Below are positions 277-19,395 of a stretch of 64,000 nucleotides of DNA, piece after piece (positions within the stretch are counted from its first letter, which is position 1; each line of letters starts with the position of its first letter). The notes below the pieces were generated by a model. That model ran no database searches. It was not told the origin of the DNA and saw only the letters and a program-made list of their open reading frames with translations. Source of the DNA: Arthrobacter tumbae (GTDB lineage Bacteria > Actinomycetota > Actinomycetes > Actinomycetales > Micrococcaceae); assembly GCF_016907495.1 (NCBI RefSeq), contig NZ_JAFBCC010000001.1:744001-808000 (forward strand), written 5' to 3'. The translations under genes and the position numbers were made by a program.

Positions 277-914
277 GACCCACACCAACACCGGCGCTCC
301 TGCTTCACCATCGCGGCATCGACAAGGGCTGGGGACTGTGGTGGCTACTCGCCTGGGCGGCAGCGGTAGCCAGCTCCCTAGTCACCATCCCTCGCATAGA
401 TCCCGGCGTATCTTCGGCAAGTAGCGCCCTCGAACAACTCGGCGCCATCGGACTCTGCCTACCGTTGGTGCTGGTAGGTGTCCTCGTGCAGGACCGCACA
501 GCATGGCTCACAACAACAGCCCCGCGCAGCCCAGTCCTCATGCGGCTGGGTAACCTCGGACTCATCACAGGTGTAAGCCTCATCTCCGCCATGACCGCAG
601 CCGCGCTCTACCCGAACGACATCCGCTGGCTAAGGATCGTCAGTCTCTTCGCACTCCTCCTAGCCCTCACCCTGATCACCGGCGTCCTCATAGGTGGCGT
701 GTGGGCTGCTTTTCTCGCCCCCGCATTCGTCATCCTGAACACGATTCCCGGTCTCATCCCTTGGGAATGGAACATCGTCTACAACCCTGCAACTGATCCA
801 GTCCTTATACCCACGGCCGCAATCTCACTGGCAACAGCCTTCATAGTGGCCGCCACTTCGGCGGCAGTTCAGCGCAGCTTAGTACAGAGACCTGACCGAG
901 AAGATGCGCGGTGA
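273..914 (+). CDS. Multi-pass membrane protein, unknown function
   Basis: About 213 residues with five or six hydrophobic segments (roughly residues 20-40, 58-78, 92-115, 125-165 and 185-205). The GTG at 273 is preferred because it gives a 4-base overlap with the upstream stop; an in-frame GTG at 267 is also possible. The layout resembles a permease-like partner of a soluble protein, but no family motif is visible. Its TGA stop (912-914) lies inside a copy of the island-wide 13-base repeat (908-920). Function unknown. Confidence 0.75.
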   Translation: MRPTPTPALLLHHRGIDKGWGLWWLLAWAAAVASSLVTIPRIDPGVSSASSALEQLGAIGLCLPLVLVGVLVQDRTAWLTTTAPRSPVLMRLGNLGLITGVSLISAMTAAALYPNDIRWLRIVSLFALLLALTLITGVLIGGVWAAFLAPAFVILNTIPGLIPWEWNIVYNPATDPVLIPTAAISLATAFIVAATSAAVQRSLVQRPDREDAR

Positions 915-920
915 CGGATC
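908..920 (+). repeat. Cassette-boundary repeat, copy 1
   Basis: GCGGTGACGGATC, one mismatch to the consensus GCGGTGAGGGATC. It overlaps the stop codon of the membrane protein gene (TGA at 912-914) and is followed by CCG, as in the copies at 2955 and 7015. Confidence 0.6.
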
Positions 921-1041
921 CCGTTGTCCCAGGTGTCACGGGTGGATCACAGTTCGACTGGTCGTGGCGAAATTCAGTACTAGCGCGAGTAGCCTTCGGA
1001 AATAGCCTGAAAAGGTCTGCTAAGCCTCAGGGGGACGGCTT

Positions 1042-1575
1042 ATGAACTTGTTTGGTTTGCGCAGTGGCGAAGAACGCTTTGAGGAGTTCGGCGTTCCGCT
1101 GCTGAGCCTCATGCCCAACACCCGATTTGTGCTCGACAGGATCAACTGGCAGGGAACGGACACTGACCCGACCGACGTTTCGGAGGTGTCCTACATAGAT
1201 TCCCTGCGGTCTGACCTCTCGGTCAGGACCTCAATTCGCACCTACAAGAACGGGGAAGTGGTTCGAAGTGTCGTCGACAACCGGACCGCCCTGCAAAGTC
1301 ATCTGGTCACGGCTTGCGTGAAGCAGATCCTTCCCACCGGCCGGTCTTCTCGAGAATTACCGCATCGCTTGGAGGAATTTAGTCGGCGTACTGCGCGGAT
1401 CAAGCTCCGCGACTCCACATTGCATATAGATGGGGAGGAAGTTGACACGCGAGTTGGCAGCTTCGACTTCCTCTCGGTGGCAGAGGTCGTCCTCGATGAC
1501 AGGGTTGCGACACTAATCGGTCCAAATGGCTTCCTTGAAACCCCGATGGGATCCAAGTCATTGCCCAGACAATGA
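1042..1575 (+). CDS. Hypothetical protein (177 aa)
   Basis: A soluble 177-residue protein starting at ATG 1042, with a purine-rich ribosome site (AGGGGGA) about eight bases upstream. No signal peptide or membrane segment is visible. The sequence is acidic to neutral with an Arg-rich middle and a beta-rich C-terminal half. No family recognised. It sits alone between boundary repeats at 908 and 1637, which makes it a one-gene segment. High third-position GC supports real coding. Confidence 0.7.
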   Translation: MNLFGLRSGEERFEEFGVPLLSLMPNTRFVLDRINWQGTDTDPTDVSEVSYIDSLRSDLSVRTSIRTYKNGEVVRSVVDNRTALQSHLVTACVKQILPTGRSSRELPHRLEEFSRRTARIKLRDSTLHIDGEEVDTRVGSFDFLSVAEVVLDDRVATLIGPNGFLETPMGSKSLPRQ

Positions 1576-1618
1576 CGAGATCAACACTCTGATCGTCAGC
1601 TGAACCAAGCAACCTCGT

Positions 1619-1647
1619 GATCCCTCCCCCCTGAACGCTGAGGGATC
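1619..1647 (+). repeat. Cassette-boundary repeat, copy 2, with inverted partner
   Basis: GCTGAGGGATC (1637-1647) is preceded by the inverted 8-mer GATCCCTC (1619-1626). The 8-bp arms are separated by 13 bases, so the site can fold into a small hairpin. It lies 45-60 bases after the stop of the preceding gene. Confidence 0.7.
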
Positions 1648-1688
1648 GCCTGCGACAGGCGAATGCAGGTTCAAGTTACAAAAGGACT

Positions 1689-2171
1689 ATGACTAAGGCA
1701 GCGACGATCAAACCTAGAAGCATTGTGCTAAGGAGGTACATCCACCAGTTCTTGGAACCGACTGGACGAAGTCGCTGGCTCTCGACCGACTCGGTCAGGC
1801 CCAAGAAGTCCGTGGCTCGCCGAATCCGTCCGGGTTTAGAGCTCATATCCGGAGGCTACATCACTGATTGGTCGCGGCGCCCGCATTTCTTCGACCAGAT
1901 TGGTGTTGATGCCTCCTACTCTCAAGGCAACGTCGCGCTTCAATCCGACAGCAGTGACCAGGAGTTGAGAGAGTCACTTCGGAGTTCGAAACAGGCCCGC
2001 GGTAGAAACAGCACGGTCAGGGATCCGCGCTGGGTGCAGCAGCATCGAAAGGGATCCGCTACTCCGAAACGTTGCCGAAGGTATCAAGTCCGCTCTGTCA
2101 ACGCGGTTAAATTGTGTGGAAGTATGCGGGTATGCGGTGGACTGGGGATGCTGAACGCGGGGCGTGGATAG
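1689..2171 (+). CDS. Doubtful ORF, possibly a degraded gene
   Basis: An open frame of 160 codons starting at ATG 1689. Up to about 1980 the third positions are GC-rich and the sequence looks coding; after that it turns Arg/Ser-rich and overlaps the better-supported downstream gene by 58 bases. No family recognised. Likely either a remnant whose true C-terminus is lost, or chance. Without it, 1576-2113 would hold only the repeat at 1619-1647. Confidence 0.3.
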   Translation: MTKAATIKPRSIVLRRYIHQFLEPTGRSRWLSTDSVRPKKSVARRIRPGLELISGGYITDWSRRPHFFDQIGVDASYSQGNVALQSDSSDQELRESLRSSKQARGRNSTVRDPRWVQQHRKGSATPKRCRRYQVRSVNAVKLCGSMRVCGGLGMLNAGRG

Positions 2172-2896
2172 GGGAACTTCTCAAGGGACCTCTCGGTTCA
2201 GTGGCCAGTATCGTCCCCTCGGGTTTCAAAGCCTACGCTCGCATTCTGCACCCGGTGAGCGTCACCCGGCATAACCCTAAAGGCGAGAACAACCCGCGCG
2301 ATGACTACCCGACAGAGGAGTGGTCGTGGGCACGGATCGCAGCCCACACAGGAACGATCATCCACCCGAAGGTCCAGTGGATCCGAGTAGCTGGCCATCA
2401 ATACAGCTCACTGCCGCTGCCAGGGAACAGGAGCGCTGAGCCTCCGCCACTTGGATGGCTGAATCCCCGGCTCCTCGCTGAAATCATGCGCACCGCAACT
2501 GCACACACCAGCACCACCGACGACATCACCGCCGCTGTGTGGACTGGCTGGGGCTTCCAGTCCAACACCCTGGCCCGCGGCCCGTTCCTTGAACTGCCGG
2601 GCCGCCAGTACGTCTTACTGGCAACGAGCACGGAGGAGCTGGCGAATCCGCTCTGGCCTTGGGAGGCTGAAATCGGTTGGGGCGAGGGCTTCAGCGGACC
2701 TATGCCGCAACTCATTTGGCCGGAGGACCGCGCTTGGGCCATCACATCCGAGATCGATTTCGACTCCACGCTCATTGGTGGTTCGTTCGAGTTCATCAAT
2801 CAAGTTATGGAGATTCCAGCCGTAGAAGCGGAGCGCGTAGAACCGACAACGGACCTCACCTGGGACGCAGACGACGTCAACCGGCCGACCTCCTGA
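2114..2896 (+). CDS. Conserved hypothetical protein
   Basis: About 260 residues from GTG 2114; ATG 2132 is an equally plausible start, with GGAAG nine bases before it. The protein is soluble and Trp-rich, with the phrases KAYARILHPV near residue 40 and HPKVQW near residue 90. I associate this pattern with an uncharacterised protein family common in actinobacteria, from memory only. The C-terminal third has GFSGPMPQLIWPEDRAW-type sequence followed by an acidic stretch. Function unknown. It is followed at once by the best-formed boundary repeat. Confidence 0.75.
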   Translation: MWKYAGMRWTGDAERGAWIGELLKGPLGSVASIVPSGFKAYARILHPVSVTRHNPKGENNPRDDYPTEEWSWARIAAHTGTIIHPKVQWIRVAGHQYSSLPLPGNRSAEPPPLGWLNPRLLAEIMRTATAHTSTTDDITAAVWTGWGFQSNTLARGPFLELPGRQYVLLATSTEELANPLWPWEAEIGWGEGFSGPMPQLIWPEDRAWAITSEIDFDSTLIGGSFEFINQVMEIPAVEAERVEPTTDLTWDADDVNRPTS

Positions 2897-2929
2897 CCGC
2901 CACGTCGAATTGCCGAGTTCTCGGGAGTC

Positions 2930-2967
2930 GATCCCTCACCGCCGGAGATAGAGCGCGGTGAGGGATC
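2930..2967 (+). repeat. Cassette-boundary repeat, copy 3, perfect inverted pair
   Basis: GATCCCTCACCGC (2930-2942) and GCGGTGAGGGATC (2955-2967) are perfect 13-bp inverted arms around a 12-base loop. There is no T-run, so an ordinary intrinsic terminator is unlikely. This is the clearest example of the whole site and may show its complete form. Confidence 0.85.
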
Positions 2968-3041
2968 CCGGCGGGAGACCATCGCCGGGTTCGGCGGGTT
3001 GGGCTATCGACGATTATTGGAAGCAAAGCTAGCGTGGCGGT

Positions 3042-3275
3042 ATGGCGTCTTTAGTCTCTGCCCCTGCAGACCTCGTGATTGCATCTGTGGAAGGTATTTC
3101 AGTTCGCTTCGCAGGTATCACGATGCAACCGATAATCCCTGGATCAAGGGCACCGGGGCGTAGACAAGGCGGTATAAAAGTTTCCCTCGCAGGTGCCCGG
3201 GGTGAAGAGACGATCAAGAGAGGCATCCAGCGAGCTCAAGCGATGGAGGGTTGGTACGAGATCCTCAAAACCTAG
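3042..3275 (+). CDS. Possible small hypothetical protein
   Basis: A 77-residue frame from ATG 3042 with no membrane segment and no clear ribosome site. The sequence GIQRAQAMEGWYEILKT at the end looks protein-like, but no family is recognised. It may be a fragment of a larger gene together with the next ORF. Low confidence. Confidence 0.3.
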   Translation: MASLVSAPADLVIASVEGISVRFAGITMQPIIPGSRAPGRRQGGIKVSLAGARGEETIKRGIQRAQAMEGWYEILKT

Positions 3276-3305
3276 GGCAGAGAAGCGGCCGGACATCCCC
3301 CGCCC

Positions 3306-3527
3306 ATGCCGGCAGTACCTGTCTTCGAACAAATCACCACGCAGATCTCCGACGAGCTGGGAACCGAGTACAAGCAGGTCGGTGGCCAAGTAGCAGGCGA
3401 CGGTACGGAGTGGTACGCAATCTGGACCTATCAGCCAGAACCGCCGGAAGATGCCCGCGAACTCACCATCCAATTCACCTCGGAGGGCACCGATGCCAGT
3501 ACGGAATGCAGGATCTCGCTTCGCTAG
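3306..3527 (+). CDS. Possible small hypothetical protein
   Basis: A 73-residue acidic frame from ATG 3306 with a plausible globular composition (TEWYAIWTYQPEPPEDAREL). No signal peptide or family motif. It precedes the 451-residue hypothetical gene by 100 bases in the same segment. Could be a genuine small protein or the tail of a decayed one. Confidence 0.35.
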   Translation: MPAVPVFEQITTQISDELGTEYKQVGGQVAGDGTEWYAIWTYQPEPPEDARELTIQFTSEGTDASTECRISLR

Positions 3528-3627
3528 CTCGAAGGCCGTAGCTGGCAGCCGTATTCCTTCTGCACGGTGGGCGATGGGTCCTGGCGTTGGTCCGGATGTG
3601 TTGTTAGTGCCGTTGTAGCATTGGCGC

Positions 3628-4983
3628 GTGTCTACGCCCCGGAACCCGCTCGTGCCTCTCGGCGCCGTCGTTATTGGTCGGACCGTGATCGTGCCCGATG
3701 CGGAAAGGCCCGTCGCGGCAATTATTGACGAGGATTCAACTGTCCGGTGGGTCACCTGGCCTGAGGCTCCCTTGCCCGACCGTGCGGTCGGTGAGGTGCA
3801 ACTCTTGCCCACGTCCAAGGGGGCGTGGGTGATCTATCAGGCTGAGGATACAGAAGGCCCCGATTATCTGGTGCAGCGAACGGCTGTCTCCGTCACCCCG
3901 AACGGTGTCACCGCGGCATGCGATCTTGGGCAGGGCCGGCCGGTGGGTGTTGATGCCGACGGTCTGTGGGTCGGTGATCCACGGGACGCATCGGCATGGA
4001 TGGAATCGCCTGATTCCGCAGAGACCGCGAAGGATCCGGTTGGGGCGGAAGAGCTCACTACTGAGGGGATGGAGTGGGTTCCGTCGGAACCGTTCTGGCC
4101 CGGCGAAGCAGGGAGCGAGGGCACGGCTCCGATCTCGACGCCCATCCTTGAACATGCCGGCGGCGCAAGCGATGCAGGACAGCGGACCGGGTACCTAACT
4201 CATATCCGCGCTGCTGGCGATGATGACACGTCGGTTGGTGAGCCGGGTCCTCCATTGCCGACTCCTGAAACTGAGCTCGTGCGGATCAGTACTGACGGTA
4301 AACGGACCGTGATTCAGGTTGATCACCTCGTGCACCGTGTAGATGTCTCCCGGGACACGTTGACGCTCCAGTACTTTCCTACCGGACCGCGGCAGGTCCC
4401 ACTCGGCAATGATCTTGGCTGGGATGTCGTGTATGAACCCGAACAGGTCGCCATCGACATCGCAGACGGGCTACCCGAGAGAATCGAGACCGAGCAGCTC
4501 CCGTCGAAACCTGCACCACAGGATGAGGGTGAGTGGGGACAAGACTATGGGCGGCACCACGTTACCGCCGCTCAGTGGCAGGACCGCTTCGAGCTAGACG
4601 GCGTCCAGGGCGCTGCATGGCCCCTCCGTAACCTTCGTGAGGAAGCGCGCGCTGGCGCTATCTCCAAACTCCGGGAGCAGTTTGAAACCCTCGCGAGACC
4701 CAGCATCGTGTGGACGTATGACCATCCGTCACTCCGGCTCGGGCGCAGCGACTACCGGAACGTGAGTGTCACGGAAGAAGAAGCCTGGCCGGCTACCGAG
4801 ATCGTCGTGTCATTCGAGCACATCACCGTGCCGAATCTTCGCTTGCGTAGACGTTACCGCGTATTCAACGATGCCGGGCGTCCTCGCGAATGGGCGTACG
4901 CCACCGTTCACCTCGACGAGGACCTCCACACCGGGAACATCCCACCCCGCTCCGCCGCAACCAACGGTGTCCTCGACTTCTAA
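3628..4983 (+). CDS. Hypothetical protein (451 aa)
   Basis: A GTG-initiated 451-residue soluble protein. The N-terminal 120 residues look beta-rich. An acidic, Ser/Gly/Pro-rich stretch (about residues 125-215) looks like a linker, and the C-terminal part (about 300-430) is mixed alpha/beta with an Arg-rich segment (LRLRRRYRVF). No signal peptide or transmembrane segment. I recognise no family. Codon use is GC-rich and consistent throughout, so it is very likely a real gene. It ends 20 bases before boundary repeat copy 4 and converges on the next gene. Confidence 0.75.
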   Translation: MSTPRNPLVPLGAVVIGRTVIVPDAERPVAAIIDEDSTVRWVTWPEAPLPDRAVGEVQLLPTSKGAWVIYQAEDTEGPDYLVQRTAVSVTPNGVTAACDLGQGRPVGVDADGLWVGDPRDASAWMESPDSAETAKDPVGAEELTTEGMEWVPSEPFWPGEAGSEGTAPISTPILEHAGGASDAGQRTGYLTHIRAAGDDDTSVGEPGPPLPTPETELVRISTDGKRTVIQVDHLVHRVDVSRDTLTLQYFPTGPRQVPLGNDLGWDVVYEPEQVAIDIADGLPERIETEQLPSKPAPQDEGEWGQDYGRHHVTAAQWQDRFELDGVQGAAWPLRNLREEARAGAISKLREQFETLARPSIVWTYDHPSLRLGRSDYRNVSVTEEEAWPATEIVVSFEHITVPNLRLRRRYRVFNDAGRPREWAYATVHLDEDLHTGNIPPRSAATNGVLDF

Positions 4984-5002
4984 TACCAACTGAGAACCAG
5001 CA

Positions 5003-5014
5003 CGGTGAGGGATC
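5003..5014 (+). repeat. Cassette-boundary repeat, copy 4
   Basis: CGGTGAGGGATC, exact core, located in the 33-base gap between two convergent stop codons (4983 and 5017). Confidence 0.8.
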
Positions 5015-5016
5015 GG

Positions 5017-5565
5017 CTATCCCAACGCTTCTCGTGGATAGGCAGCATCCTGGATTTCCTCGACGATCACTGATGCGGCCTGACCGGGCGTGAGTTCAGT
5101 CGTATCGATGATTCGCGCTTCATTTCGCAGCCAGCCTTGGAAGGCCTTTTCGTAGGGAGCGAGGTATCTGAAACGAAATGAAGAGGGACCCATCTCGGAG
5201 TCATTCTGGATTCGCCCCCTGAGAGTGTCTTGATCGGCGTGGAGCACGAAGTGGTGCACCGGAATGCTGTAGGAGGCTAAGCCTTGGCTGATTTCTCGCC
5301 AGTAAGCCTCGACGAGCACAGTCATCGGCATCACAAGAGTGCCGCCGGTGTAGTCAAGGATGCGCTGAGCCGTCTCGACCACGAGCTGCCGCCACGGCCG
5401 CCAGTTCTGGAAGTTATCTGTCGCAGGTAGCCCTGGACGGACGTCCATTAGCGTTTCTCCGACCTTTTCCGCGTCGAACACACGTGAATCTGGAATCAAC
5501 TGCTGCACGAGATCAGCCGTGGTCGTCTTCCCGACTCCATGCGTGCCATTCAGCCATACAATCAT
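5017..5565 (-). CDS. P-loop ATPase/kinase-like protein (TmrB-like)
   Basis: A 182-residue protein with a Walker A loop GTHGVGKTT at residues 7-15 directly after the first beta strand, then a compact alpha/beta fold. The size and the N-terminal IVWLNGTHGVGKT pattern match small AAA-type nucleotide kinases that include the tunicamycin-resistance protein TmrB; that assignment is by pattern only. It probably phosphorylates or binds a small molecule in the cytoplasm. Genes of this type are frequent in mobile cassettes. Its stop is three bases from boundary repeat copy 4, and a second - strand gene lies 61 bases upstream. Confidence 0.75.
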   Translation of the reverse strand: MIVWLNGTHGVGKTTTADLVQQLIPDSRVFDAEKVGETLMDVRPGLPATDNFQNWRPWRQLVVETAQRILDYTGGTLVMPMTVLVEAYWREISQGLASYSIPVHHFVLHADQDTLRGRIQNDSEMGPSSFRFRYLAPYEKAFQGWLRNEARIIDTTELTPGQAASVIVEEIQDAAYPREALG

Positions 5566-5626
5566 TTGCCCATGCTATTCGTACCGTCCCCGTGTGCCCG
5601 CTCAAGGATGGGATGCGTCCCGTGGT

Positions 5627-5998
5627 TTAGAGAGATGGAATAAGCGGGCCTGCATGGCCGGCAACAAGTTTCCAGGTTTTCTCGTATACCCACACTTGAG
5701 TCATGGGCATACGGTATTGGTTCCGTCCGTCGCTGTTCGACACATCGTCCTTCACAATGCAGGTAAGTACCGCCGCCGTGCCCAATATCGTGATCTCCGG
5801 CTCTTCGAGAGTCTGAGCGTGCCAATTGTTTTGGCCCTCAACTTTGGACTCAAGGTAGGCATCGCGGTCAAAATGATCTCCTTTGTGCGACGTCCATCGA
5901 AACTGCGGGTGTAATAGGCGGCGTAACTGCTTACCGTCGCGTCTTCTCAGAGCGTCGGCTCGCGCCAGGGCAGCGTCCAGTACTTCCTGATTGAGCAT
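5627..5998 (-). CDS. NTF2-like (SnoaL/DUF4440-type) protein
   Basis: A 123-residue protein starting at ATG 5998. It has the layout of the NTF2-like superfamily: an N-terminal helical pair, then LHPQFRWTSHKGDHFDRDAYL around residues 28-48, then a four-strand sheet containing MTQVWVYEKTWKLVAGHAG near the end. Members are small enzymes or ligand-binding proteins; the substrate is unknown. It is transcribed towards the TmrB-like gene and away from the phosphotransferase-like gene. Confidence 0.75.
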   Translation of the reverse strand: MLNQEVLDAALARADALRRRDGKQLRRLLHPQFRWTSHKGDHFDRDAYLESKVEGQNNWHAQTLEEPEITILGTAAVLTCIVKDDVSNSDGRNQYRMPMTQVWVYEKTWKLVAGHAGPLIPSL

Positions 5999-6083
5999 GC
6001 ACTCAGTGTGTCAGCCATGAAGCACCTACGAAACGGGTAATGGTGCCCATTGGAAGATCCCTGCGTCCTGTCTATCTCCTAGA

Positions 6084-6944
6084 GTGTCTTTGATGACGAG
6101 ATGGGATGGGACGCATCTGAGTGAGGACCAATCGGGGCTTGTAGTCCGTGAGCTCGGGGATCCCGTATTGCTGAGGGACTTGTCCTGGGACCTGGCGGCC
6201 ACGAAGGTTCTTCATGTGCGTGCGCGCGGTGAAGATTTTGTCGTGAAAGCTGCACCGCCGGAGCACCATCACATCAACCGGGAAATTACAGCGCACGAGA
6301 CCTTCACTGAAGCACTCGTTCGCAGCAACCGTACGTCTCAGCTGGTTGCTGCCCATCGAGCAGCGAATCTGTTGATAACCACCTACCAACCCGGAACACT
6401 GGTCGAGGGGACACCCTACGAGCTCGATTTGGGAGTCCACGCCCAGGCAGGTTCGGTTCTTCGTGCTTTCCATGAGCAAAGCGCACTGATCAGCGATGAG
6501 TACGAGTTGCGTGCCACGGATAAGACGGTCGCATGGCTGGACAAAGAACACCGCATCGCGTCGACGGTGGAGGCCGAGGTGCGGCAGATTCTCGCAGCGT
6601 ACCGTCCAGCACCGATCATGATCGTCCCGACGCACGGTGACTGGCAGCCGCGCAACTGGCTGATGGAAGATGGCGATATACGGGTCATTGATTTCGGCCG
6701 CTTCGATCTCCGACCGCCGGCTACCGACTTATGCCGGCTCGCTGCCCAGCAGTGGAAGGAGGCCCCCGGGCTAGAGGCTGCATTCCTTGATGGGTATGGG
6801 AGCGACCCGCGTCGGGGCGTGATCTGGGTGATGGAATTGCTGCGAGAAGCTGTCGGCACCGCGGTTTGGGCGTATCAAATGGGCGATACCGACTTCGAAG
6901 CACAAGGCCATCGCATGTTGGAAGAAGCGATCACTCATTTCTAA
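6084..6944 (+). CDS. Aminoglycoside phosphotransferase-family kinase
   Basis: About 286 residues, GTG start at 6084 (ATG 6093 possible). The APH/choline-kinase fold is shown by the catalytic loop HGDWQPRNWL near residue 185, followed by the metal-binding IDFGRFD near residue 202, with an N-terminal lobe containing FVVKAAPPE (ATP-binding Lys). The family phosphorylates small hydroxylated molecules such as aminoglycosides or macrolides. Resistance is possible but the substrate cannot be told from sequence. The family is typical of mobile cassettes. Boundary repeat copy 5 follows 70 bases after the stop. Confidence 0.85.
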   Translation: MSLMTRWDGTHLSEDQSGLVVRELGDPVLLRDLSWDLAATKVLHVRARGEDFVVKAAPPEHHHINREITAHETFTEALVRSNRTSQLVAAHRAANLLITTYQPGTLVEGTPYELDLGVHAQAGSVLRAFHEQSALISDEYELRATDKTVAWLDKEHRIASTVEAEVRQILAAYRPAPIMIVPTHGDWQPRNWLMEDGDIRVIDFGRFDLRPPATDLCRLAAQQWKEAPGLEAAFLDGYGSDPRRGVIWVMELLREAVGTAVWAYQMGDTDFEAQGHRMLEEAITHF

Positions 6945-7014
6945 AGGCAGGCAGCAGCTGCAGCCGAACCGCAAAGCCAAGACGACGCCGCCGTCCGTAG
7001 CCCCGAAAGGAGGT

Positions 7015-7027
7015 GCGGTGAGGGATC
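7015..7027 (+). repeat. Cassette-boundary repeat, copy 5
   Basis: GCGGTGAGGGATC, full 13-base consensus, followed by CCG, in the gap after the phosphotransferase-like gene. Confidence 0.8.
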
Positions 7028-7087
7028 CCGCTCGCAAGTGTTGAAGGCGAATCTAGACTCGCCACATGGATCCCATCGAGCTCACGA

Positions 7088-7360
7088 TTGATCAAGATCT
7101 TCCGCATCAGTGAGAGGAGGCAAGTTTCTGGTGCTGTGAGTTATGACTTCGAGTGGCTCAATGGTCCGAATGACGGCACCTACGGCTTCACGATTGGCAG
7201 TGTCGCCCCTGGAGCTGCGGTCGAGCCGAGTATGTCACATGACCAGCTCGCTCAGGAAGCGCGAGCATTCATTCAGGGGTTCTACGAGCCGGGAGGGGTC
7301 GGTGAGGCGGATTTCCGCGATCACATGCCAGCCAAGGGTTGCGACAACGGTGACCGCTGA
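7088..7360 (+). CDS. Small hypothetical protein
   Basis: A 90-residue frame with a TTG start at 7088. The segment SYDFEWLNGPNDGTYGFTIG (about residues 17-36) has the look of a conserved beta-rich domain. An ATG-initiated alternative frame at 7066 ends after 15 codons, so either TTG is the true start or the 5' end carries a frameshift. The TGA stop lies inside boundary repeat copy 6. With copy 5 upstream, this makes the smallest one-gene segment (about 340 bases). No family identified. Confidence 0.6.
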   Translation: MIKIFRISERRQVSGAVSYDFEWLNGPNDGTYGFTIGSVAPGAAVEPSMSHDQLAQEARAFIQGFYEPGGVGEADFRDHMPAKGCDNGDR

Positions 7361-7366
7361 GGGATC
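7356..7366 (+). repeat. Cassette-boundary repeat, copy 6
   Basis: GCTGAGGGATC, the same variant as copies 2 and 14. The preceding gene's stop codon TGA (7358-7360) is part of the repeat. Confidence 0.75.
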
Positions 7367-7400
7367 GCCACCGAATGAAGCTGGGAGATGAGGTCAACGC

Positions 7401-8646: not shown

Positions 8647-8658
8647 AAAGTCCGAACG

Positions 8659-12347: not shown

Positions 12348-12382
12348 CTGGAAAAGCCGCAGGACAGGGATAAGGGAGAAGC

Positions 12383-13744
12383 TTGAGAGAACAACCGAAA
12401 CCACGGACAGGCCGCACTAGGATCCTTACCTCAGCCGCTCTTCTACTCGCACTTCTTGGACTCACCATCATTTGGGCTACTCAGCAGACAGCGAGCTCTG
12501 AACAAGGACCGGAACAGGCCGGATCAAGCTCTCCCGTATTGACGGAGATTGCGCAGGTTTTCGAGGAACAGCTCGCCGGCTTCCGGGCAGGCTCCACGTC
12601 CGGATTCGTTGATTACCTGGCGGCGGTCCGACCGGCCGCATTAGAAAGTGAAGGCTGGCCTGAGGCGGACTACGCCCTGTTCGGTGTGCCGCGCACGGCT
12701 GACTCCGATGCAAAAGCAGCCGGCATCGCGGTGTGGGCTGGGAATCGGGGACCGGCATCCGGAAACCCGGTGATCTGCGCCGAAATCAGCATCCATCGCG
12801 ACGAGGCGCGGATTCACATCGAACAGACACGCTGCCCAGAAAAGATGCCCTCAAAAACAGGGCAGGTCGATGCACCTCAGAAAAGAGCTGAAGTGCTGGG
12901 CCTGGTACTGGAGACTCGGAACGACCTAGTAAGGGGTGATTCAGCGAACGAAGGAACACCGATGACGCAGGTCCTCCCGGCTGATCCTCAACGCGCCACC
13001 GGTCCGTGTTCCGCGAACGATCTGCGGGCAACCTTCGACTCAGGAAATGCGGCTGGAAATACTGACAACTTCGTCGTCCGCGTGCAAAACGTGGCTGAAA
13101 ACCCATGTGAGCTCTCCGAAGCCACCGGCATCAACATCGACCTCGGCCGCAAAGCTCTTCAACCCTTGTGGGACCAAGCTAAATCCGCCGTGACACTGCA
13201 GCCTTGGGAGTCTGCGATGACTGCGATCTCTTACAGACCCCACCAAATCTTCCCTGCCCACCAGATTATTACCTTGCAATTGCAGGGCGGGGAGGTTCTT
13301 CTGAGACCGCCCGCTGGCCACTCCGGAGCGACCCTCGCAGTCGCGGAATCGAGCGAGATCAGTGCAACGTCCTGGGAAGTGCTGGGCTATGGAGTTGATC
13401 GAGCGCATTGGGAAAACGGTTCTGCCGCTGTCGACATCGCATCCGCGTGTCAGAATCAACAACTCGCCACAACGACGCCTCAGCCCTATCTTGCGTCAGG
13501 GCAAGACCAGCCAAGCGAGCTGCCATACCGCCTGCTGAACATCAGTACCAGTACCTGCCGCATAGATAAGGGCAGGGTCGACGGTCTCGACCAAGTGCCG
13601 CCCCTAACAATCGCATCCACTGCTGTACTGAAGCCGGGAACTGCCATCGATGTGCCTGCCGAAAGCGGCGCACCGGACTTATCCGGCACATTGATCATTG
13701 ACGGAGCTCAGATACAGGAAGCCGATCCGAACAAGCGTCCTTGA
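12383..13744 (+). CDS. Membrane-anchored protein with DUF4232-like domains
   Basis: 453 residues from a TTG start, with a single N-terminal transmembrane segment (about residues 13-33), so most of the protein is extracytoplasmic. Two related beta-rich units with paired cysteines, C-N-L-x-A ... VQNVAENPCELSEATG (about 210-255) and C-x-N-x-x-L-A ... LNISTSTCRIDKG (about 350-395), resemble the Cys-paired pattern of DUF4232. That is a pattern call without a search. A preceding region (about 50-190) may be another domain. Likely a cell-envelope protein expressed with the upstream lipoprotein. Confidence 0.7.
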   Translation: MREQPKPRTGRTRILTSAALLLALLGLTIIWATQQTASSEQGPEQAGSSSPVLTEIAQVFEEQLAGFRAGSTSGFVDYLAAVRPAALESEGWPEADYALFGVPRTADSDAKAAGIAVWAGNRGPASGNPVICAEISIHRDEARIHIEQTRCPEKMPSKTGQVDAPQKRAEVLGLVLETRNDLVRGDSANEGTPMTQVLPADPQRATGPCSANDLRATFDSGNAAGNTDNFVVRVQNVAENPCELSEATGINIDLGRKALQPLWDQAKSAVTLQPWESAMTAISYRPHQIFPAHQIITLQLQGGEVLLRPPAGHSGATLAVAESSEISATSWEVLGYGVDRAHWENGSAAVDIASACQNQQLATTTPQPYLASGQDQPSELPYRLLNISTSTCRIDKGRVDGLDQVPPLTIASTAVLKPGTAIDVPAESGAPDLSGTLIIDGAQIQEADPNKRP

Positions 13745-13778
13745 GCTACACGCTGAAGCCCCGAACCTCATACGCATC

Positions 13779-13812
13779 GATCCCTCACCGAAACAGCGAA
13801 CGGTAAGGGATC
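13779..13812 (+). repeat. Cassette-boundary repeat, copy 11, with inverted partner
   Basis: GATCCCTCACCG (13779-13790) and CGGTAAGGGATC (13801-13812) form 12-base arms with one mismatch around a 10-base loop. The site directly follows the stop of the DUF4232-like gene. Confidence 0.75.
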
Positions 13813-13854
13813 GGCTCAGCCCCGACGGTCCCTTCCATGCAATCACCCCGCCGG

Positions 13855-14109: not shown

Positions 14110-14116
14110 TGTCAAT

Positions 14117-14206
14117 GGCCATTAGTTTCTGCCCACGGGCGGCCAGTAAAAGTGCCCGCTGGTGGCCAGTAAAACTGCCCTGTGATGGCCAACAGATCTG
14201 CCCACT
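14117..14206. repeat. IS21 end: multiple terminal repeats (istB side)
   Basis: Four related units begin with GGCC at 14117, 14141, 14164 and 14187; the third reads GGCCAGTAAAACTGCCC. These are the presumed IstA-binding sites at the downstream end of the element. Confidence 0.8.
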
Positions 14207-14241
14207 GAGTGGTTCGGCGGGGTTGGCCATTTTTGGGGCGG

Positions 14242-15030
14242 TTAGTTCAGGGCTGTGACCCCCTTACCGGCGAGGGCTTGGGTGAGGCGGATCGAATCGC
14301 CGCTTGTTTGGCAGACGTGGGCGTGATGCAGGAGCCGGTCCACGGTGGCGGTGGCGAGGGTTTTGGGCATGAGCTCATCGAAACCGGCGGGGTGGAGGTT
14401 GGAGCTGATCGCAATGGAGCGCTTCTCGTAGGCTGCGTCCACGACCCGGTAGAGACCTTCGGCGGCGTCCGTGGCCACCGGCAACAGCCCGATGTCATCA
14501 ATGACCACGAGCTCGGCGCGGAGGATCCGGGACACGGCCCTGGTGACGCTGTCATCGGTGCGGTGCGCCCGGATCAGGACGCCGAGGTCTTCGAGCCGGA
14601 ACCAGGCCACGCGCATCCCGGCTTCCACGGCTTGCTGGCCGAGTGCTTCGAGGAAGAACGTTTTCCCGGTTCCGGAGGGCCCGCAGACGACCAGGTTTTC
14701 CCGCCGGGTGACCCATTCCAGGGTCCGTAGCGCGTGTTGGGTGGGGGCGGGGATGGAAGACGCGTCGGGGTCCCAGGCGTCGAAGGTTTTCCCGGTGGGG
14801 AATCCTGCTGCTTTGCGCCGGTTGGCGAGCATGGACCGTGCCCGTCCGGCGGTTTCCTCCGTGAAGAGGGCCTTGATGACCTCGACCGGCTCCCAACGCT
14901 GCGCTTTAGCGGTGGTGATCAGTTCCGGTGCCAGGGCGCGGGCGTGCGGCATCTTCAACTGACGCATCAGCGCTTCAAGGTCCGCAGGCAGGGGCGGTGC
15001 GGTGGTGTTGGTTGTGGTGACCGGGCTCAT
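14242..15030 (-). CDS. istB: IS21-family helper ATPase IstB
   Basis: A 262-residue AAA+ ATPase with Walker A GPSGTGKT at about residues 116-123, Walker B LVVIDDIGLL near 175 and the downstream sensor region SIAISSNLHP. IstB forms ATP-dependent oligomers on target DNA, bends it and recruits the IstA transposase. Its start overlaps the istA stop by four bases (15027-15030), the standard IS21 arrangement for translational coupling. Length is normal for the family. Confidence 0.93.
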   Translation of the reverse strand: MSPVTTTNTTAPPLPADLEALMRQLKMPHARALAPELITTAKAQRWEPVEVIKALFTEETAGRARSMLANRRKAAGFPTGKTFDAWDPDASSIPAPTQHALRTLEWVTRRENLVVCGPSGTGKTFFLEALGQQAVEAGMRVAWFRLEDLGVLIRAHRTDDSVTRAVSRILRAELVVIDDIGLLPVATDAAEGLYRVVDAAYEKRSIAISSNLHPAGFDELMPKTLATATVDRLLHHAHVCQTSGDSIRLTQALAGKGVTALN

Positions 15031-16598
15031 CGGGCGTCCTCCGCTGTGGTATCTGCGGTAATGGTGGTGTCGCTGGTAGGGGTGGTGGTGTGGTTCGGGG
15101 CGGGGTTGCCGATCGCCGCCCAGGCACTCGTTCCTTGAGTCAGCGAGGTGGTTTCATTCGCGGCGTGCGTGGTGGTGCGTTGGGTGGTGGCATTGAGGAT
15201 CGAGGCCAGGTCACCGTGGGCGAACCGGCCATGCAGCGCGGCGGTCCCGAGAGCCCGGTCCACGGCTGCGGTGCCGGCGATCTTCGCCAGGGTGACGGCT
15301 TCGGCCATTTTCACGTTCATCCGCTGCGCGCCGGTGGCGGCTGCTTCGATGAGCCAGGTCCGGGCGCCTTCCCCGAGGGCCAGGAACTCGGCCTCGTCAG
15401 CGGTGCGGGCCTTGACCGTGTAATCGCCCGGGATGCGGGTCCTGGTGCCGGGGAAATGCTCATCACAGATGGCCGGGCTGCCCGGGCGGGTACGGCGGTG
15501 TCGGGCGACTTCGACCGGACCGGCTGGCCCGTGGTGGACGATGATGATCTGCTCGCCGGGCCCGGTGCCGTGGGCGCGGACGAACACGCGGGCGCCGAGC
15601 AGGTGCGCGGGCACCGAGTACTGCCCGTTTTCGAAGGTCACCATGGGGGTGTTCTCCGGGACGGTGCGGGCGAGCCCGAACGCGACCGTATGCGCAGCAC
15701 CCGGGATCCGGTGCAACCGGGGTTGTTCCTCGGTGAGCATGGTCGCGGGTTTGCGCCGGGTAATCCGGTGTTCGCGCTGGTTCACATGATCCATGAACGC
15801 TTCGCACGCCTCCTCCAACTCGGTGAAAGTGCTGTAGTCGGTGCGGAGGTTGGTGTCTTTGGGTACGAGGTCGGCTTTGGCGAGTTTCACCGCGGCTTCG
15901 ACCCCGCCCTTGCTTGCCGGGTCCGCGGGCTGGCAGGTCAGCACCGTTACGCCGTAATGCCGGGCGAAGTCCAGGGTCTGCTGGTTCCTCACCGGGACCC
16001 CGGCGACATGGGCGGTGGTCACGGATTTCTCGTTATCGGTGAGCACATACGTCGGTGCCCCGCCCAGGATCCGGAAGCACCGGTCCAGGGCGGCGAACAC
16101 GCTCGGCGCGGTCCGGTCCTTGAGCGGAATCACGATCCGGAACCGGGACCAGGCCAGCCAGGCGACGAACAGGACGGTCTTCACCCCTCCGATGCGCGGG
16201 CCGTCGCCGAAGTCGTACTGCAACCACATCCCCGGCTCGGTGATCCACGGCCGGTGGACCCGGACGTGTCCGAGCCGCCACGCGGCTTTGACCTGAGCGA
16301 TGGCCCGCCGGGTGGAGCGCTCAGAGCCTTCATAGCCGAGGGCTACGAGCTTGTCGTGGGCTTTATCGGCGCGGATCCGGCCGTTGGATGTTTGGACCCA
16401 CTCCTCGATTTTGGGCAGGAACGGGTCGGTGACCCGGTCCCGGGCAGCGGGTTCGGCGATCGGGCGGCCGGCGTCGCGTGCCGCGACATGCTTGGCAACA
16501 GTGTGGTGCGAGCAGCCCGTGAGCTCCGCTGTTGCGCGCAGCGACCCGGTCAGGTCGTAGGCAGCAAGAATTTCCATGATTTCTCCGTCAGACTTCAT
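15027..16598 (-). CDS. istA: IS21-family transposase IstA
   Basis: 523 residues. An N-terminal helix-turn-helix (about 15-40, SLRATAELTGCSHHTVAKHV) is followed by a DDE catalytic core: Asp in LQYDFGDG (about 128), Asp in VLTDNEKS (about 188) and Glu in KGGVEAAVKLA (about 234). The C-terminal part has the beta-barrel-like and helical extensions usual for IstA. It cuts and joins the element's ends and works with IstB. Full length for the family and uninterrupted. Confidence 0.93.
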   Translation of the reverse strand: MKSDGEIMEILAAYDLTGSLRATAELTGCSHHTVAKHVAARDAGRPIAEPAARDRVTDPFLPKIEEWVQTSNGRIRADKAHDKLVALGYEGSERSTRRAIAQVKAAWRLGHVRVHRPWITEPGMWLQYDFGDGPRIGGVKTVLFVAWLAWSRFRIVIPLKDRTAPSVFAALDRCFRILGGAPTYVLTDNEKSVTTAHVAGVPVRNQQTLDFARHYGVTVLTCQPADPASKGGVEAAVKLAKADLVPKDTNLRTDYSTFTELEEACEAFMDHVNQREHRITRRKPATMLTEEQPRLHRIPGAAHTVAFGLARTVPENTPMVTFENGQYSVPAHLLGARVFVRAHGTGPGEQIIIVHHGPAGPVEVARHRRTRPGSPAICDEHFPGTRTRIPGDYTVKARTADEAEFLALGEGARTWLIEAAATGAQRMNVKMAEAVTLAKIAGTAAVDRALGTAALHGRFAHGDLASILNATTQRTTTHAANETTSLTQGTSAWAAIGNPAPNHTTTPTSDTTITADTTAEDAR

Positions 16599-16703
16599 AC
16601 AAGGGGTCTCTTCCTCGGTCAGGTTTGATGCGATTCGACACCGTCATCAAACCCCGGGAAGAGGCCCCGTACCGCTTAAGACGCGGTAGGAACAGTAAGG
16701 AAG

Positions 16704-16795
16704 TGGGCAGATCTCATGGCCACCGGTGGGCAGTTTTACTGGCCGTCAGTGGGCACTTTCGTGGCCGCCTATGGGCAGTTTTTCATGGCCGCTAA
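16704..16795. repeat. IS21 end: multiple terminal repeats (istA side)
   Basis: Inverted counterparts of the units at 14117-14206, for example GGGCAGTTTTACTGGCC and GGGCAGTTTTTCATGGCC, lying upstream of istA and probably overlapping its promoter. Confidence 0.8.
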
Positions 16796-16797
16796 CA

Positions 16798-17030: not shown

Positions 17031-17092
17031 TAGCTTCCCCCAAAGACGAGACTGAGATGATCGCTACAGACTACCCAAGCCCAGTGCTCGAA

Positions 17093-17104
17093 CGGTGAGG
17101 GATC
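17093..17104 (+). repeat. Cassette-boundary repeat, copy 12
   Basis: CGGTGAGGGATC followed by GG. The context CGAACGGTGAGGGATCGG nearly equals that of copy 11 (GCGAACGGTAAGGGATCGG), so similarity here extends beyond the core. It lies 10 bases from the stop of the next - strand gene. Confidence 0.8.
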
Positions 17105-17114
17105 GGACACGGAC

Positions 17115-17402
17115 TTACTCACGCGGGCTCTTCTTGTCATCGGAGTCTGAGGAAGGCGTTTCTTCGCCATCATCATCAAAGTAGTAGTACGTCGTCTCGG
17201 AGGCTTTCTTGCCCAACAGTTTCTCGCGATGTCTCTCGGTTTCTTCCGAGTACTTGGCACTCCATTCAAAGCCCAAGTCGCATACAAAGACAACGGCTAG
17301 CCCGAGCGAAACCCCGATGAGTACATCCCAGTTTTTCAGGAAGAAGCTGATTACCCCAGCCTCGAGGAGCAGACCAACGGCGGCGTATATGTACAGTTTC
17401 AC
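17115..17402 (-). CDS. Small membrane protein (95 aa)
   Basis: From ATG 17402: two closely spaced transmembrane segments (about residues 4-21 and 26-45), then a charged cytoplasmic tail rich in Glu/Lys with YYYFDDDGEETPSSDSDDKK. The hairpin topology and the acidic tail are the only recognisable features. It is the only gene between repeat copies 12 and 13. Confidence 0.65.
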   Translation of the reverse strand: MKLYIYAAVGLLLEAGVISFFLKNWDVLIGVSLGLAVVFVCDLGFEWSAKYSEETERHREKLLGKKASETTYYYFDDDGEETPSSDSDDKKSPRE

Positions 17403-17499
17403 TCGGCCTCGATCCGAAAGCTGCTTCTTCCCACAATGCAGTTTCTACAGCACCACTTTGGACCGTTGAGCCTCGAAGGATCTATGGATCACCTCGGTT

Positions 17500-17511
17500 C
17501 GGTGAGCGATC
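17500..17511 (+). repeat. Cassette-boundary repeat, copy 13 (one mismatch)
   Basis: CGGTGAGCGATC, one mismatch in the core, located between divergent genes, 38 bases before the ATG at 17549. Confidence 0.55.
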
Positions 17512-17548
17512 GGTTCTCGACTGCGGGTGGGGATGTAAGGATGAGCTG

Positions 17549-18616
17549 ATGAACACTCCTTCACAGTTGCTTCTCGATGGGCCTCGCGGGAGACGTCTGT
17601 GTTTGGAGCTCGCGATGGAGCTAGACCCTGACATCAGGCAGAGCGCTTTCCGGCTGGCGCACAGCCTCGATCCGGCAAGCGGAACATCAAGGGTCCTGAT
17701 AGCAGCCGATACTGGGCAACCCGCCGCACCGTTCCTCAACTGGTCCCCGGCCGAGCTGGCAGCAGCAATCGTTTCACTCGACTTGGCTCATATCGGTGCT
17801 GGTGCGCTCAACGCCGCTCTGCAACGGTCAGTAGAGGCGGCGCGGTACTGGCAGGAACCAGACGGAGAAGACATACTCGCTGGACTTCCTGAAGTACGCG
17901 AAGCCTTCGCACCTATCGCGGATAAGATCTTGGCCCTGCCGTCGATGCAATGGCTCCGCGAGCCACGCCACATCGAACAATGGGCCATCGACTGGCGATC
18001 AGCTGACGACCCGGCCCCGTTGCCGCGTGCACCCCGGCAAGCACTATCGAAATGGGCGCAGGACGAGCGTGCGGAAGAACTGCGTGCCTCTCGGGACCGC
18101 CCGCAAGATCCACACGCCAACTGGTCCGGAACCTGGTGGTCAGTACCGCGCGGCACCATCAGCACTGTGGGGCAGATCCCGGCAGGTTTGAGCCTCATCG
18201 AGGATTCTTTGGGATGGGAGCAGGCAACCGTTATCGCTGTCCGCGGGATTGGCGCAACGTATGAGATCCGCACCGCAGATGACTGGGTAGCACTGTGCCG
18301 GAAGTACCCGCTGGAAGGTACCGCCTCACGCCGACACGACTGGTACCGGACAACTGGTCGGAACGGCCGCTGGGTCCTCCCGGACTGGGAGCGAGTGGCC
18401 GATGAATGGGACGCCGTGCACCTGACAGGCTTGGGTTACCTCAGCAGCGCTGGCCGGGCCCTTCCCGTTGATTCCGACACGTCATCGGTTATCGCCGGCT
18501 GGGACCCAGACCGCACATTCTGGCTCACAGACGTGGCTCGAGAATGGGAGACACCACGGCAGGCATGGCACCGCCCCTCACCTCAAGAAGAGTCCTGGAC
18601 GCAACTTCCGACATAA
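17549..18616 (+). CDS. Conserved hypothetical protein (355 aa)
   Basis: A soluble Trp-rich protein from ATG 17549. The C-terminal third has a strongly patterned segment, RKYPLEGTASRRHDWYRTTG then GRWVLPDWERVADEWDAVHL and LTGLGYLSSAGRALPV, ending with AGWDPDRTFWL. I recall this as an uncharacterised domain widespread in actinobacteria, often near secreted-toxin or immunity genes; no function is established and no search was possible. The N-terminal half is helical. It fills exactly the segment between repeat copies 13 and 14. Confidence 0.8.
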   Translation: MNTPSQLLLDGPRGRRLCLELAMELDPDIRQSAFRLAHSLDPASGTSRVLIAADTGQPAAPFLNWSPAELAAAIVSLDLAHIGAGALNAALQRSVEAARYWQEPDGEDILAGLPEVREAFAPIADKILALPSMQWLREPRHIEQWAIDWRSADDPAPLPRAPRQALSKWAQDERAEELRASRDRPQDPHANWSGTWWSVPRGTISTVGQIPAGLSLIEDSLGWEQATVIAVRGIGATYEIRTADDWVALCRKYPLEGTASRRHDWYRTTGRNGRWVLPDWERVADEWDAVHLTGLGYLSSAGRALPVDSDTSSVIAGWDPDRTFWLTDVAREWETPRQAWHRPSPQEESWTQLPT

Positions 18617-18637
18617 CCGAGGCGCGACGGTATGCCC

Positions 18638-18648
18638 GCTGAGGGATC
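18638..18648 (+). repeat. Cassette-boundary repeat, copy 14
   Basis: GCTGAGGGATC, 21 bases after the preceding stop. Same variant as copies 2 and 6. The following 197 bases up to 18845 hold no gene that I can support. Confidence 0.75.
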
Positions 18649-18845
18649 CGCTCGTCTCGGGTTGCCCGACTGTAACGGTGACGTTGCGTATCTCCGGTTT
18701 CCTCGGCGTTGAGAGGTCCGGTTGGTAGCGTGACGTCATGGGGATTCGCACTCGGTCGGCCAGCTCACTGGCTTGAAGCCTTGGTGATTGTGCCTTTTAT
18801 ATAGAGAGCGTCCCCTTTGTGATCGTAGGCGACTAGGAGAGTGCG

Positions 18846-19034
18846 ATGGCTAGGTCAGTGCGAATCATTGGTTTGGTGGTGATGGTTGTATCTTTGGCCG
18901 TCCTAGCAGTTTGGCAGTGGCTTCCAGCCCTGTTCTTCTTTCCGGCAGGGGCCGCCATGCTGCTATGGAATGGTCACGAGTTCTCACTTCATCCGAACAC
19001 GAGCGGTTCTTCTAACGAGTCACCGCGAAGTTGA
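18846..19034 (+). CDS. Small two-pass membrane protein (62 aa)
   Basis: ATG 18846 with GGAGAG six bases upstream. Two adjacent hydrophobic helices (about residues 7-23 and 26-43) precede a polar Ser-rich tail. Function unknown. The next gene begins within a few bases of its stop, so they are probably co-expressed. Confidence 0.6.
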   Translation: MARSVRIIGLVVMVVSLAVLAVWQWLPALFFFPAGAAMLLWNGHEFSLHPNTSGSSNESPRS

Positions 19035-19051
19035 ACGCGGTAAGGCCAGTC

Positions 19052-19330
19052 ATGTGGGACAGCACAATCGCCGTTTCGTCCGGATCGCCAGCTATCGGAG
19101 GGATCATCGGATTCGCGATACTCCTGATTATCATCGGGGGCATCCTCGTCAGGTTGGTCATCGCCATATTTCGCCGGGGAAAGAACGAAGTCAAGAAGGA
19201 TGTACTCGGGCCGGTCTTCAAGTCCGGTGGAGTCCAGTCCGAACTCTATGGCTTCAAACCGACGGAAGCTCAAGACTTGCAGCCAAAAAAACGCCGCTCC
19301 GAATCTAACGACTCAGGCCGAAGGACGTAG
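19052..19330 (+). CDS. Small membrane protein (92 aa)
   Basis: ATG 19052 with TAAGG upstream; a TTG at 19031 that overlaps the previous stop is an alternative. One long hydrophobic segment (about residues 15-39) follows a short Ser/Gly-rich N-terminus, and a basic cytoplasmic tail follows (FRRGKNEVKKDV ... LQPKKRR). Probably a single-pass protein. Function unknown; last gene before the final boundary repeat. Confidence 0.6.
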   Translation: MWDSTIAVSSGSPAIGGIIGFAILLIIIGGILVRLVIAIFRRGKNEVKKDVLGPVFKSGGVQSELYGFKPTEAQDLQPKKRRSESNDSGRRT

Positions 19331-19384
19331 CCTGCGGATGCTCGTGCCGGTTTCGCACTCTCCCGGCCGACGCAGGGTGAGTGG

Positions 19385-19395
19385 GGTGAGGGATC
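19385..19395 (+). repeat. Cassette-boundary repeat, copy 15 (last)
   Basis: GGTGAGGGATC, exact 11-base core, between the convergent ends of the membrane protein gene (19330) and the DUF4166 gene (19422). No further exact copy was found to the end of the window. Confidence 0.75.

Follow-up and report, generated by a model that had tools for sequence, protein, structure and literature searches.

Integrons are the textbook example of natural gene capture, and they rest on one unusual lineage of tyrosine recombinases. In these systems the recombinase gene is divergent from the cassette array, a special site lies adjacent to it, and arrays are also found elsewhere. In pdif modules (XerC/XerD) genes are likewise bounded by short recombinase sites, of the dif-type 11-6-11 layout and used by tyrosine recombinases, while in the staphylococcal cassette chromosome (SCC) elements the ccr serine recombinases insert cargo, and these elements can stack in tandem. 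The known small serine recombinases invert or resolve one segment. A 26-bp 12-2-12 arrangement is the layout of the DNA-invertase core sites (Hin/Gin), and DNA invertases and resolvases cut such sites with a 2-nt stagger. To our knowledge no small serine recombinase builds arrays of captured genes. Here we describe an island of repeated sites and small genes in Arthrobacter tumbae, located in a stretch of 64 kb (positions 744,001-808,000 of the single contig of the genome; hereafter the window), and compare it with these systems.

The island is probably a gene-cassette array in which a stand-alone small serine recombinase cuts and rejoins the sites. In the mechanism we propose, the 3' end of a cassette would be the conserved 12-bp half-site GNNCGSTGAGGG and the 5' end the weaker half-site CSNYTWNCGGNC, and a 26-bp 12-2-12 site would be recreated whenever two cassette ends are joined with AT at the centre. 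A serine recombinase of approximately 195 aa would make a double-strand cleavage around the AT centre and then swap the half-sites. Cassettes may thereby move as excised circles or become inverted, and they may insert either beside the recombinase or into existing arrays, the site adjacent to the gene being the presumed insertion point. Comparison of sequences establishes that the sites are clustered, that homology breaks exactly at cassettes and that, in many relatives, variable DNA starts at a full site beside the recombinase gene.

A repeat, GSTGAGGGATC, had been pointed out in an earlier examination of the window that used its sequence alone (the sequence-only reading), and our motif search of the window recovered every one of its coordinates. 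Ten exact copies are located on the + strand (1637, 2957, 5004, 7017, 7356, 9702, 10180, 17094, 18638 and 19385) and two on the - strand (2930 and 13779). Island copies with one mismatch start at 910, 2015, 8002, 13802 and 17501 on the + strand and at 1619 on the - strand; the copy at 2015 had been overlooked. Allowing up to one mismatch gives 22 copies in the window, 18 of these within 910-19395; 100 dinucleotide-preserving shuffles of the window gave a mean of 3.48 (standard deviation 1.88, maximum 12) and none of them reached 22. The enrichment is real, which confirms the observation, and the other 44 kb of the window are free of exact copies, as had been stated. Counts from a reversed-motif control were near zero and were set aside as background; the control word contains CTAG, which is rare in bacteria.

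Across the genome (3.70 Mb) there are 33 exact copies, and 26 of them fall into three clusters: 12 at 745.6-763.4 kb (the window), 9 at 1992.6-2005.9 kb and 5 at 2144.0-2150.9 kb, with 7 scattered copies. Far from being common genome-wide, the case that the sequence-only reading had set against itself, the sites are thus clustered. The 37 other genomes of the genus carry 2-14 exact copies each. In the first two clusters the exact copies are on the + strand up to 2,000,825, apart from two inverted partners in the window, and from 2,000,832 onward and throughout the third cluster they are on the - strand. At 2,000,825/832 the two directions collide head to head in a perfect 26-bp palindrome, GTGCGGTGAGGG-AT-CCCTCACCGCAC. 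The three inverted partners described in the window (1619, 2930 and 13779) do exist, but rather than a class of their own they are best read as opposite-facing half-sites. In another genome, six same-strand copies of the motif (G234:C1:2383720-2388091; four, then two) have an exact spacing of 324 bp; this is probably a tandem DNA repeat that happens to bear the motif, with no tie to cassettes.

We aligned 36 sites from the three arrays, variants included. A G is found at position -4 in 33 of 36 and a C at -1 in 34 of 36, both outside the search word, and there is little conservation beyond these and GSTGAGGGATC. The full site has 26 bp, GNNCGSTGAGGG-AT-CSNYTWNCGGNC, and the repeat corresponds to its left half. 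Array sites of relatives (n=104, from 53 loci in other genomes) were picked on the left half and AT only, and their right half is nevertheless conserved (position 15 C94, 16 C67/G33, 22 C68, 23 G80, 24 G66, 26 C59); therefore the site has a 12-2-12 structure. Many overlapping opposite-facing pairs, i.e. full palindromes, are present in the relatives' loci. Judged from these logos and from the homology breaks at the centre, the site appears to be of the kind used by small serine recombinases, with a roughly palindromic core and a 2-nt centre. None of the logos of 36, 37 (this genome) and 104 sites contains a GTTRRRY core. Additionally, L028 (3280/3315) and L029 (6076/6110 and 7839/7865) contain pairs of sites that face the same way at a distance of 26-35 bp, the second site being AC-centred; these look like cassettes emptied down to two half-sites.

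The units of the array were delimited by comparing loci with each other. The comparison of the three arrays gave nine matches outside insertion sequences (IS), three of them below 78% identity. Four were checked base by base, and all four are bounded by intact or decayed sites. Window 17500-18648 is 95.6% identical to 3035-4183 of locus L012 with unrelated DNA on either side; the match reaches from the base preceding the first motif copy to the final base of the second. In array 2 an inverted segment is 86% identical to window 5598-6025, and the ends of this match exposed the decayed sites 5596 and 6045. The two remaining checked pairs have identities of 82% and 88%. Two further matches, both included in the break statistics below, lack a site at their ends: 253 bp between L012 and the window, and 215 bp between L014 and the window, the latter 22 bp from a site. 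Elsewhere in the same genome, 2136673-2137812 is 98.4% identical to window 8000-9139, which holds the GNAT and RraB-like genes.

Break statistics were calculated on 110 high-scoring segment pairs (HSPs) of at least 78% identity from the arrays and recombinase neighbourhoods, counting an end if it fell within 14 bp of a site. HSPs over recombinase genes, those below 78%, those longer than 2600 or shorter than 120 bp, and pairs of L135/L136 among themselves were left out. Sites were found at 65 of 434 homology-end positions, against 5.2 expected, and both partners carry a site at 23 of 217 ends. In the sharpest pairs both ends are at most 3 bases from the central dinucleotide (L022, 538 bp, 99.3%; L031/L112, 343 bp, 93.0%; L119/L140, 358 bp, 94.7%; L026/L122, 1642 bp, 97.5%). 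A 6.4-kb piece of the window array had a match in 16 of the 38 genomes of the genus (its own included); each match is one cassette or part of one, and in no genome were two neighbouring cassettes matched. At loci outside the window region (L249-L259), a strong site lies within about 100 bp of the homology end in 4 of 11 (L249, L250, L256 and L257).

Homologous units are thus repeatedly bounded by site centres with unrelated flanks, and therefore we regard them as gene cassettes joined by site-specific recombination. This supports what the sequence-only reading had proposed, namely that site-specific recombination at sites other than attC shuffles an array of gene cassettes, since cassette-sized homologous units start and end at sites both within the genome and between species. 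As in integrons, there appear to be exchangeable cassettes with exact ends, the homology breaks being what points to the exchange.

No recombinase gene had been seen in the window, which is correct, but a strong candidate is present elsewhere in the genome and beside arrays in relatives. In the related genome G032, five same-facing sites occur in 7 kb, and the single resolvase-family match lies about 5 kb from these. Its 195-aa product has a Resolvase domain (PF00239, E 5.9e-40) followed by an HTH domain (PF02796, E 1.4e-5) and is 84% identical to the product, also of about 195 aa, of the small serine recombinase gene of A. tumbae (G000:C1:2174590-2175156). The nearest solved structures to the G032 protein are the DNA invertases 4m6f (E 2.2e-31) and 3uj3 (1.9e-30), then gamma-delta resolvase. 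Relatives at E <=1e-60 were found in 124 of 395 genomes of the family, and 80 loci that were retained include Arthrobacter, Pseudarthrobacter, Kocuria, Microbacterium, Cryobacterium, Nocardioides and other genera. At the same threshold there are 448 plasmid records. The conjugative plasmid pAO1 of Paenarthrobacter nicotinovorans (L246) shows several 12-2-12 matches (7752-10056) upstream of a recombinase gene, their centres being AC, AT and others; the same plasmid encodes another recombinase, Pycsar and Abi genes, and a Mu-type transposase accompanied by an ATPase.

Recombinase loci (n=45; 853,746 bp) average 2.16 sites per 20 kb, compared to 0.60 in 20 controls (400,000 bp). Among these controls is L147, which has a gene closely related to the recombinase; it was dropped from the comparison using a centre-free model, which gave 7.1 vs 1.3 sites per 20 kb, this model being partly trained on the same recombinase loci. 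The gene and an exact 15-base site are located on one contig, at most 14 kb apart, in at least 12 genomes. Site counts per genome were rejected as proof of the enzyme link, the difference between genomes with and without the gene (2.1 vs 1.5) being too weak. Three tyrosine recombinases were also found in the genome, none within an array, and they are XerC/XerD-like or far under the integron cut-off; with the integrase_gron profile they scored 108, 91.9 and 43.1 bits against a cut-off of 265, on partial sequences.

A site resembling those of the arrays is often found beside the recombinase gene itself. A strict pattern of the centre plus the right half, searched 60-190 bp upstream of the gene, matched 38 of 103 distinct upstream regions, and 37 were kept after removal of a misplaced match in L229. 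The centre is 120-150 bp upstream in 36 of 37 and 62 bp upstream in the other. The left half, which is outside the pattern, reads GCNCGGTGANSG and matches the array half-site. Scored with a model built from these sites, 18 of 66 held-out upstream regions exceed the 1% level of 1320 random control windows and 8 beat all controls. In 55 of 103 upstream regions there is, as beside the integrase of an integron, an insertion-type site where variable DNA begins. Pairwise homology stops 140-149 bp upstream, at the outer end of the adjacent site, in 89 of 193 recombinase pairs with identity >=78%; most other pairs stop closer to the gene, 28 of them at 70-79 bp and 17 at 30-39 bp, while five continue past 180 bp, at least two of which are the same contig twice. 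A 1.64-kb cassette starts directly at the adjacent site in two species (L026 and L122), the recombinase of L026 being fragmented. The first cassette beside the L105 recombinase has a 97.3% copy just left of the window (genome 736806-737503); the match begins two bases before TT, which we read as the centre in both, the strict pattern having taken another register in L105. Beside the recombinase of A. tumbae, an 85% match to L106 ends at a weak TT-centred site (L093 15711).

An additional half-site match in reverse orientation, mostly weak, is located 20-33 bp ahead of the start in 30 of 46 cases, resembling the res region of resolvases. Related but different transposase elements (584 and 582 aa; IS30-like by eye) sit between the recombinase start and the upstream site in L175 (8100-9966) and L227 (approximately 2610-4870), with overlaps of about 5 bp. 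Insertions may be targeted to this res-like region.

Several observations weigh against the reading proposed here. Of the HSPs used for the break statistics, 78 of 110 have no end at a site at all, and one end of the 98.4% duplicate stops 4 bp short of the centre. Gain or loss of cassettes had been suggested as support; it was looked for among 151 available loci (one genome per species), and 0 of 33 insertion candidates had sites at both ends. These candidates comprise one L175 insertion seen against many partners (18), one in L227 (3) and 12 others. In this genome (n=37) the right half of the array sites is decayed, only its first one or two positions being conserved, and the recombinase gene lies roughly 21 kb beyond the final strong site in the third array (2,153,220), with its adjacent site absent or decayed. 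No recognisable site was found in 48 of 103 upstream regions. The centre beside the gene is AC in 32 of 37 and AT in 5 of 37, whereas the arrays mostly have AT (centre-free matches in 53 loci, n=349, adjacent sites included: AT 215, AC 53), and known serine recombinases require matching centres. Finally, the correlation within the genus is weak, the 14 other genomes with the recombinase having a mean of 2.1 sites and the 23 without it 1.5.

One rival explanation is that another recombinase built the array and that the nearby small serine recombinase is only a plasmid-type resolvase with a similar site. In its favour, some genomes have sites but no close recombinase, many further small serine recombinases exist (29 resolvase-family matches in G193, for example), plasmids commonly carry the recombinase family, and the centres differ. 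We nevertheless consider this unlikely, as the adjacent site equals the array site in left half, right half and spacing, and one cassette is joined to the adjacent site in two species. Moreover, the site density near 12 other serine recombinases is 0.75 per 20 kb (9 sites of >=13 bits in 240 kb) compared to 2.16, and seven random places held 1 site in 140 kb. Alternatively, the sites could be relics of res sub-site I from repeatedly integrated plasmids or transposons, making the array a by-product of cointegrate resolution. The resolvase-like half-site upstream of the gene is in line with this, and so is plasmid p3132-53, where the gene is accompanied by a single site in the 28 kb seen. Cassettes are single-gene sized, however, those annotated have no plasmid or transposon backbone apart from a later IS21 element, and some units are common to several species with exact ends, all of which makes such an origin quite improbable.

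We give very little credence to a true integron, i.e. a tyrosine integrase and attC, with unusual sites. The recombinase gene of relatives is divergent from the array, the sites here mostly face one way and the genes are cassette-like, but the three tyrosine recombinases are XerC/XerD-like and far under the integron-integrase cut-off. GTTRRRY is absent from the site logos, and one cassette ends so soon after a stop codon (about 20 bp) that there is no space for an attC; the attC reading was rejected on the logos and the sub-cut-off scores. That the motif is a regulator-binding site or a terminator that merely lies between genes is scarcely believable: three inverted pairs (1619/1637, 2930/2957 and 13779/13802) would suit it, but the homology breaks at the motif contradict it, and most island copies are single-armed and face the same way whatever the gene strand, as the sequence-only reading had noted. 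A gene-cassette array served by a small serine recombinase is the reading we retain.

The sites and cassettes of the island are listed in Table 1. Cassettes measure 0.3-2 kb and usually contain one or two genes on either strand, and many of the products are without a Pfam match. The weaker sites 5596, 6045, 9132 and 11693 subdivide the island further. The first three of these are homology ends, 5596 and 6045 splitting a 2-kb stretch into three one-gene cassettes, while site 11693 is suggested by 16 bases matching a cassette end at L012 8330.

Table 1. Predicted recombination sites, cassettes and inserted element of the island (positions in the window).
Feature	Position	Strand	Remarks
Recombination site 12-2-12	906..931	+	Centre AT 918-919
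Recombination site	1633..1658	+	Centre AT 1645-1646; opposite-facing half-site 1619-1629 (-)
Probable site (GCACGGTCAGGG AT)	2011..2036	+	Centre 2023-2024; no homology end found at site
Recombination site	2953..2978	+	Centre AT 2965-2966; opposite-facing half-site 2930-2940 (-)
Recombination site	5000..5025	+	Centre AT 5012-5013
Decayed site (GCCCGCTCAAGG AT)	5596..5621	+	Left end of cassette common to window and L012
Decayed site (GCCCATTGGAAG AT)	6045..6070	+	Right end of cassette whose left end is the 5596 site
Recombination site	7013..7038	+	Centre AT 7025-7026
Recombination site	7352..7377	+	Centre AT 7364-7365
Recombination site	7998..8023	+	Centre AT 8010-8011; one end of the cassette with a 98.4% duplicate at genome 2136673-2137812
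Variant site, centre GT	9132..9157	+	Other end of 98.4% duplicate; homology ends 4 bp before centre
Recombination site	9698..9723	+	Centre AT 9710-9711
Recombination site	10176..10201	+	Centre AT 10188-10189
Weak site (GCACGGTGGAGG AT)	11693..11718	+	16 bases identical to cassette end at L012 8330
Recombination site	13798..13823	+	Centre AT 13810-13811; opposite-facing half-site 13779-13789 (-)
Recombination site	17090..17115	+	Centre AT 17102-17103
Recombination site	17497..17522	+	Centre AT 17509-17510; left end of cassette common to window and L012
Recombination site	18634..18659	+	Centre AT 18646-18647; right end of cassette starting at 17497 site
Last site of the array	19381..19406	+	Centre AT 19393-19394
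Cassette, 260-aa protein (2114-2896), no Pfam match	2024..2965	+	
Cassette, 451-aa protein (3628-4983), no Pfam match	2966..5012	+	
Cassette, small AAA-domain (kinase-like) protein (5017-5565)	5013..5608	-	
Cassette, DUF4440 protein (5627-5998)	5609..6057	-	86% copy in array 2
Cassette, APH-type phosphotransferase (6084-6944)	6058..7025	+	
Cassette, GNAT acetyltransferase (8047-8646) and RraB-like protein (8659-9066)	8011..9144	-	98.4% copy, genome 2136673-2137812
Cassette, perhaps two; products of 174 aa and of 453 aa (DUF4232)	11706..13810	+	
IS21-family element (istA, istB) inserted in array	14110..16797	-	Not the shuffler
Cassette, 355-aa protein, no Pfam match	17510..18646	+	95.6% copy, genome 1993035-1994183, flanks unrelated
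Last cassette, 99-aa open reading frame (19031-19330), no Pfam match	18647..19393	+	

Each of the three arrays contains one nearly identical IS21-family element (window 14110-16797; L012 4387-7074; L014 3319-6005). IS21 was rejected as the shuffler of cassettes, the three copies having differing 6-bp target duplications (gcggta, aacatt and caagac), which identify them at the level of sequence as independent insertions. No plasmid record was found to carry cassettes of the window, the IS21 element alone being matched (13 records), and a segment of array 2 gave four plasmid matches at 66-70%. Adjacent gene pairs resembling ECF sigma and anti-sigma factors, recognised by eye, recur in the arrays of three genomes (L014 9305-10893, L021 13256-14793 and L028 6532-7883). 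A similar protein of about 303 aa is encoded by the first gene beside the recombinase in L132 (approximately 10,970-11,880) and by the second gene beside that of A. tumbae (L093, approximately 14,700-15,610). It looks like a predicted nucleotide-binding/TIR-type defence protein, and its position hints at defence genes in cassettes.

If the link to the enzyme holds, this is, as far as we found, a new kind of gene-cassette array. We class it as new because no known kind of gene-cassette array was found to use this enzyme class; the open-access matches listed, a set to which preprints and most subscription papers do not belong, contain no description of a serine-recombinase gene-cassette array. 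We lean towards a wider view, in which it would be a second, independently evolved integron: a chromosomal platform of Actinomycetota where a small serine recombinase and a res-like site capture, store and reshuffle single-gene cassettes bounded by 12-bp half-sites, with cassettes spreading among Micrococcaceae and perhaps wider by means of a plasmid-borne enzyme. Cassette arrays would then have evolved more than once, and such systems could account for some of the single-gene accessory islands in soil Actinomycetota. Furthermore, the system would offer simple cassettes with 26-bp sites for genome engineering. Resolvases and invertases, the enzyme's known relatives, need accessory sites or proteins, and it becomes testable how a resolvase-type enzyme, normally confined to excising or inverting DNA, can support the capture of genes.

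Compared to integrons (chromosomal integrons or CALIN-type arrays), the likeness lies in a recombinase gene divergent from an array of small cassettes, a special site beside it, and arrays located away from the recombinase. The differences are a serine instead of a tyrosine recombinase, a 12-2-12 site instead of attC with GTTRRRY, and cassette genes on both strands; no IntI integrase is among the three tyrosine recombinases found (partial sequences), and the site logos show no attC boxes (RYYYAAC/GTTRRRY). The pdif modules share the placing of genes between short sites and differ in their dif-type 11-6-11 sites and tyrosine recombinases. For SCC elements, the Ccr models cover 442-558 positions and each element carries its own ccr, whereas here a 195-aa enzyme would serve cassettes free of a recombinase; the CcrA, CcrB and CcrC models scored 26.1, 32.6 and 24.2 bits on the recombinase against cut-offs of 700, 900 and 900, so it does not belong to the large serine recombinases. 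In enzyme and site there is a likeness to the Gin/Hin invertases and the Tn3/gamma-delta resolvases, with which the system shares the protein family, the order of Resolvase and HTH domains, the 26-bp 12-2-12 site and the weak res-like repeats.

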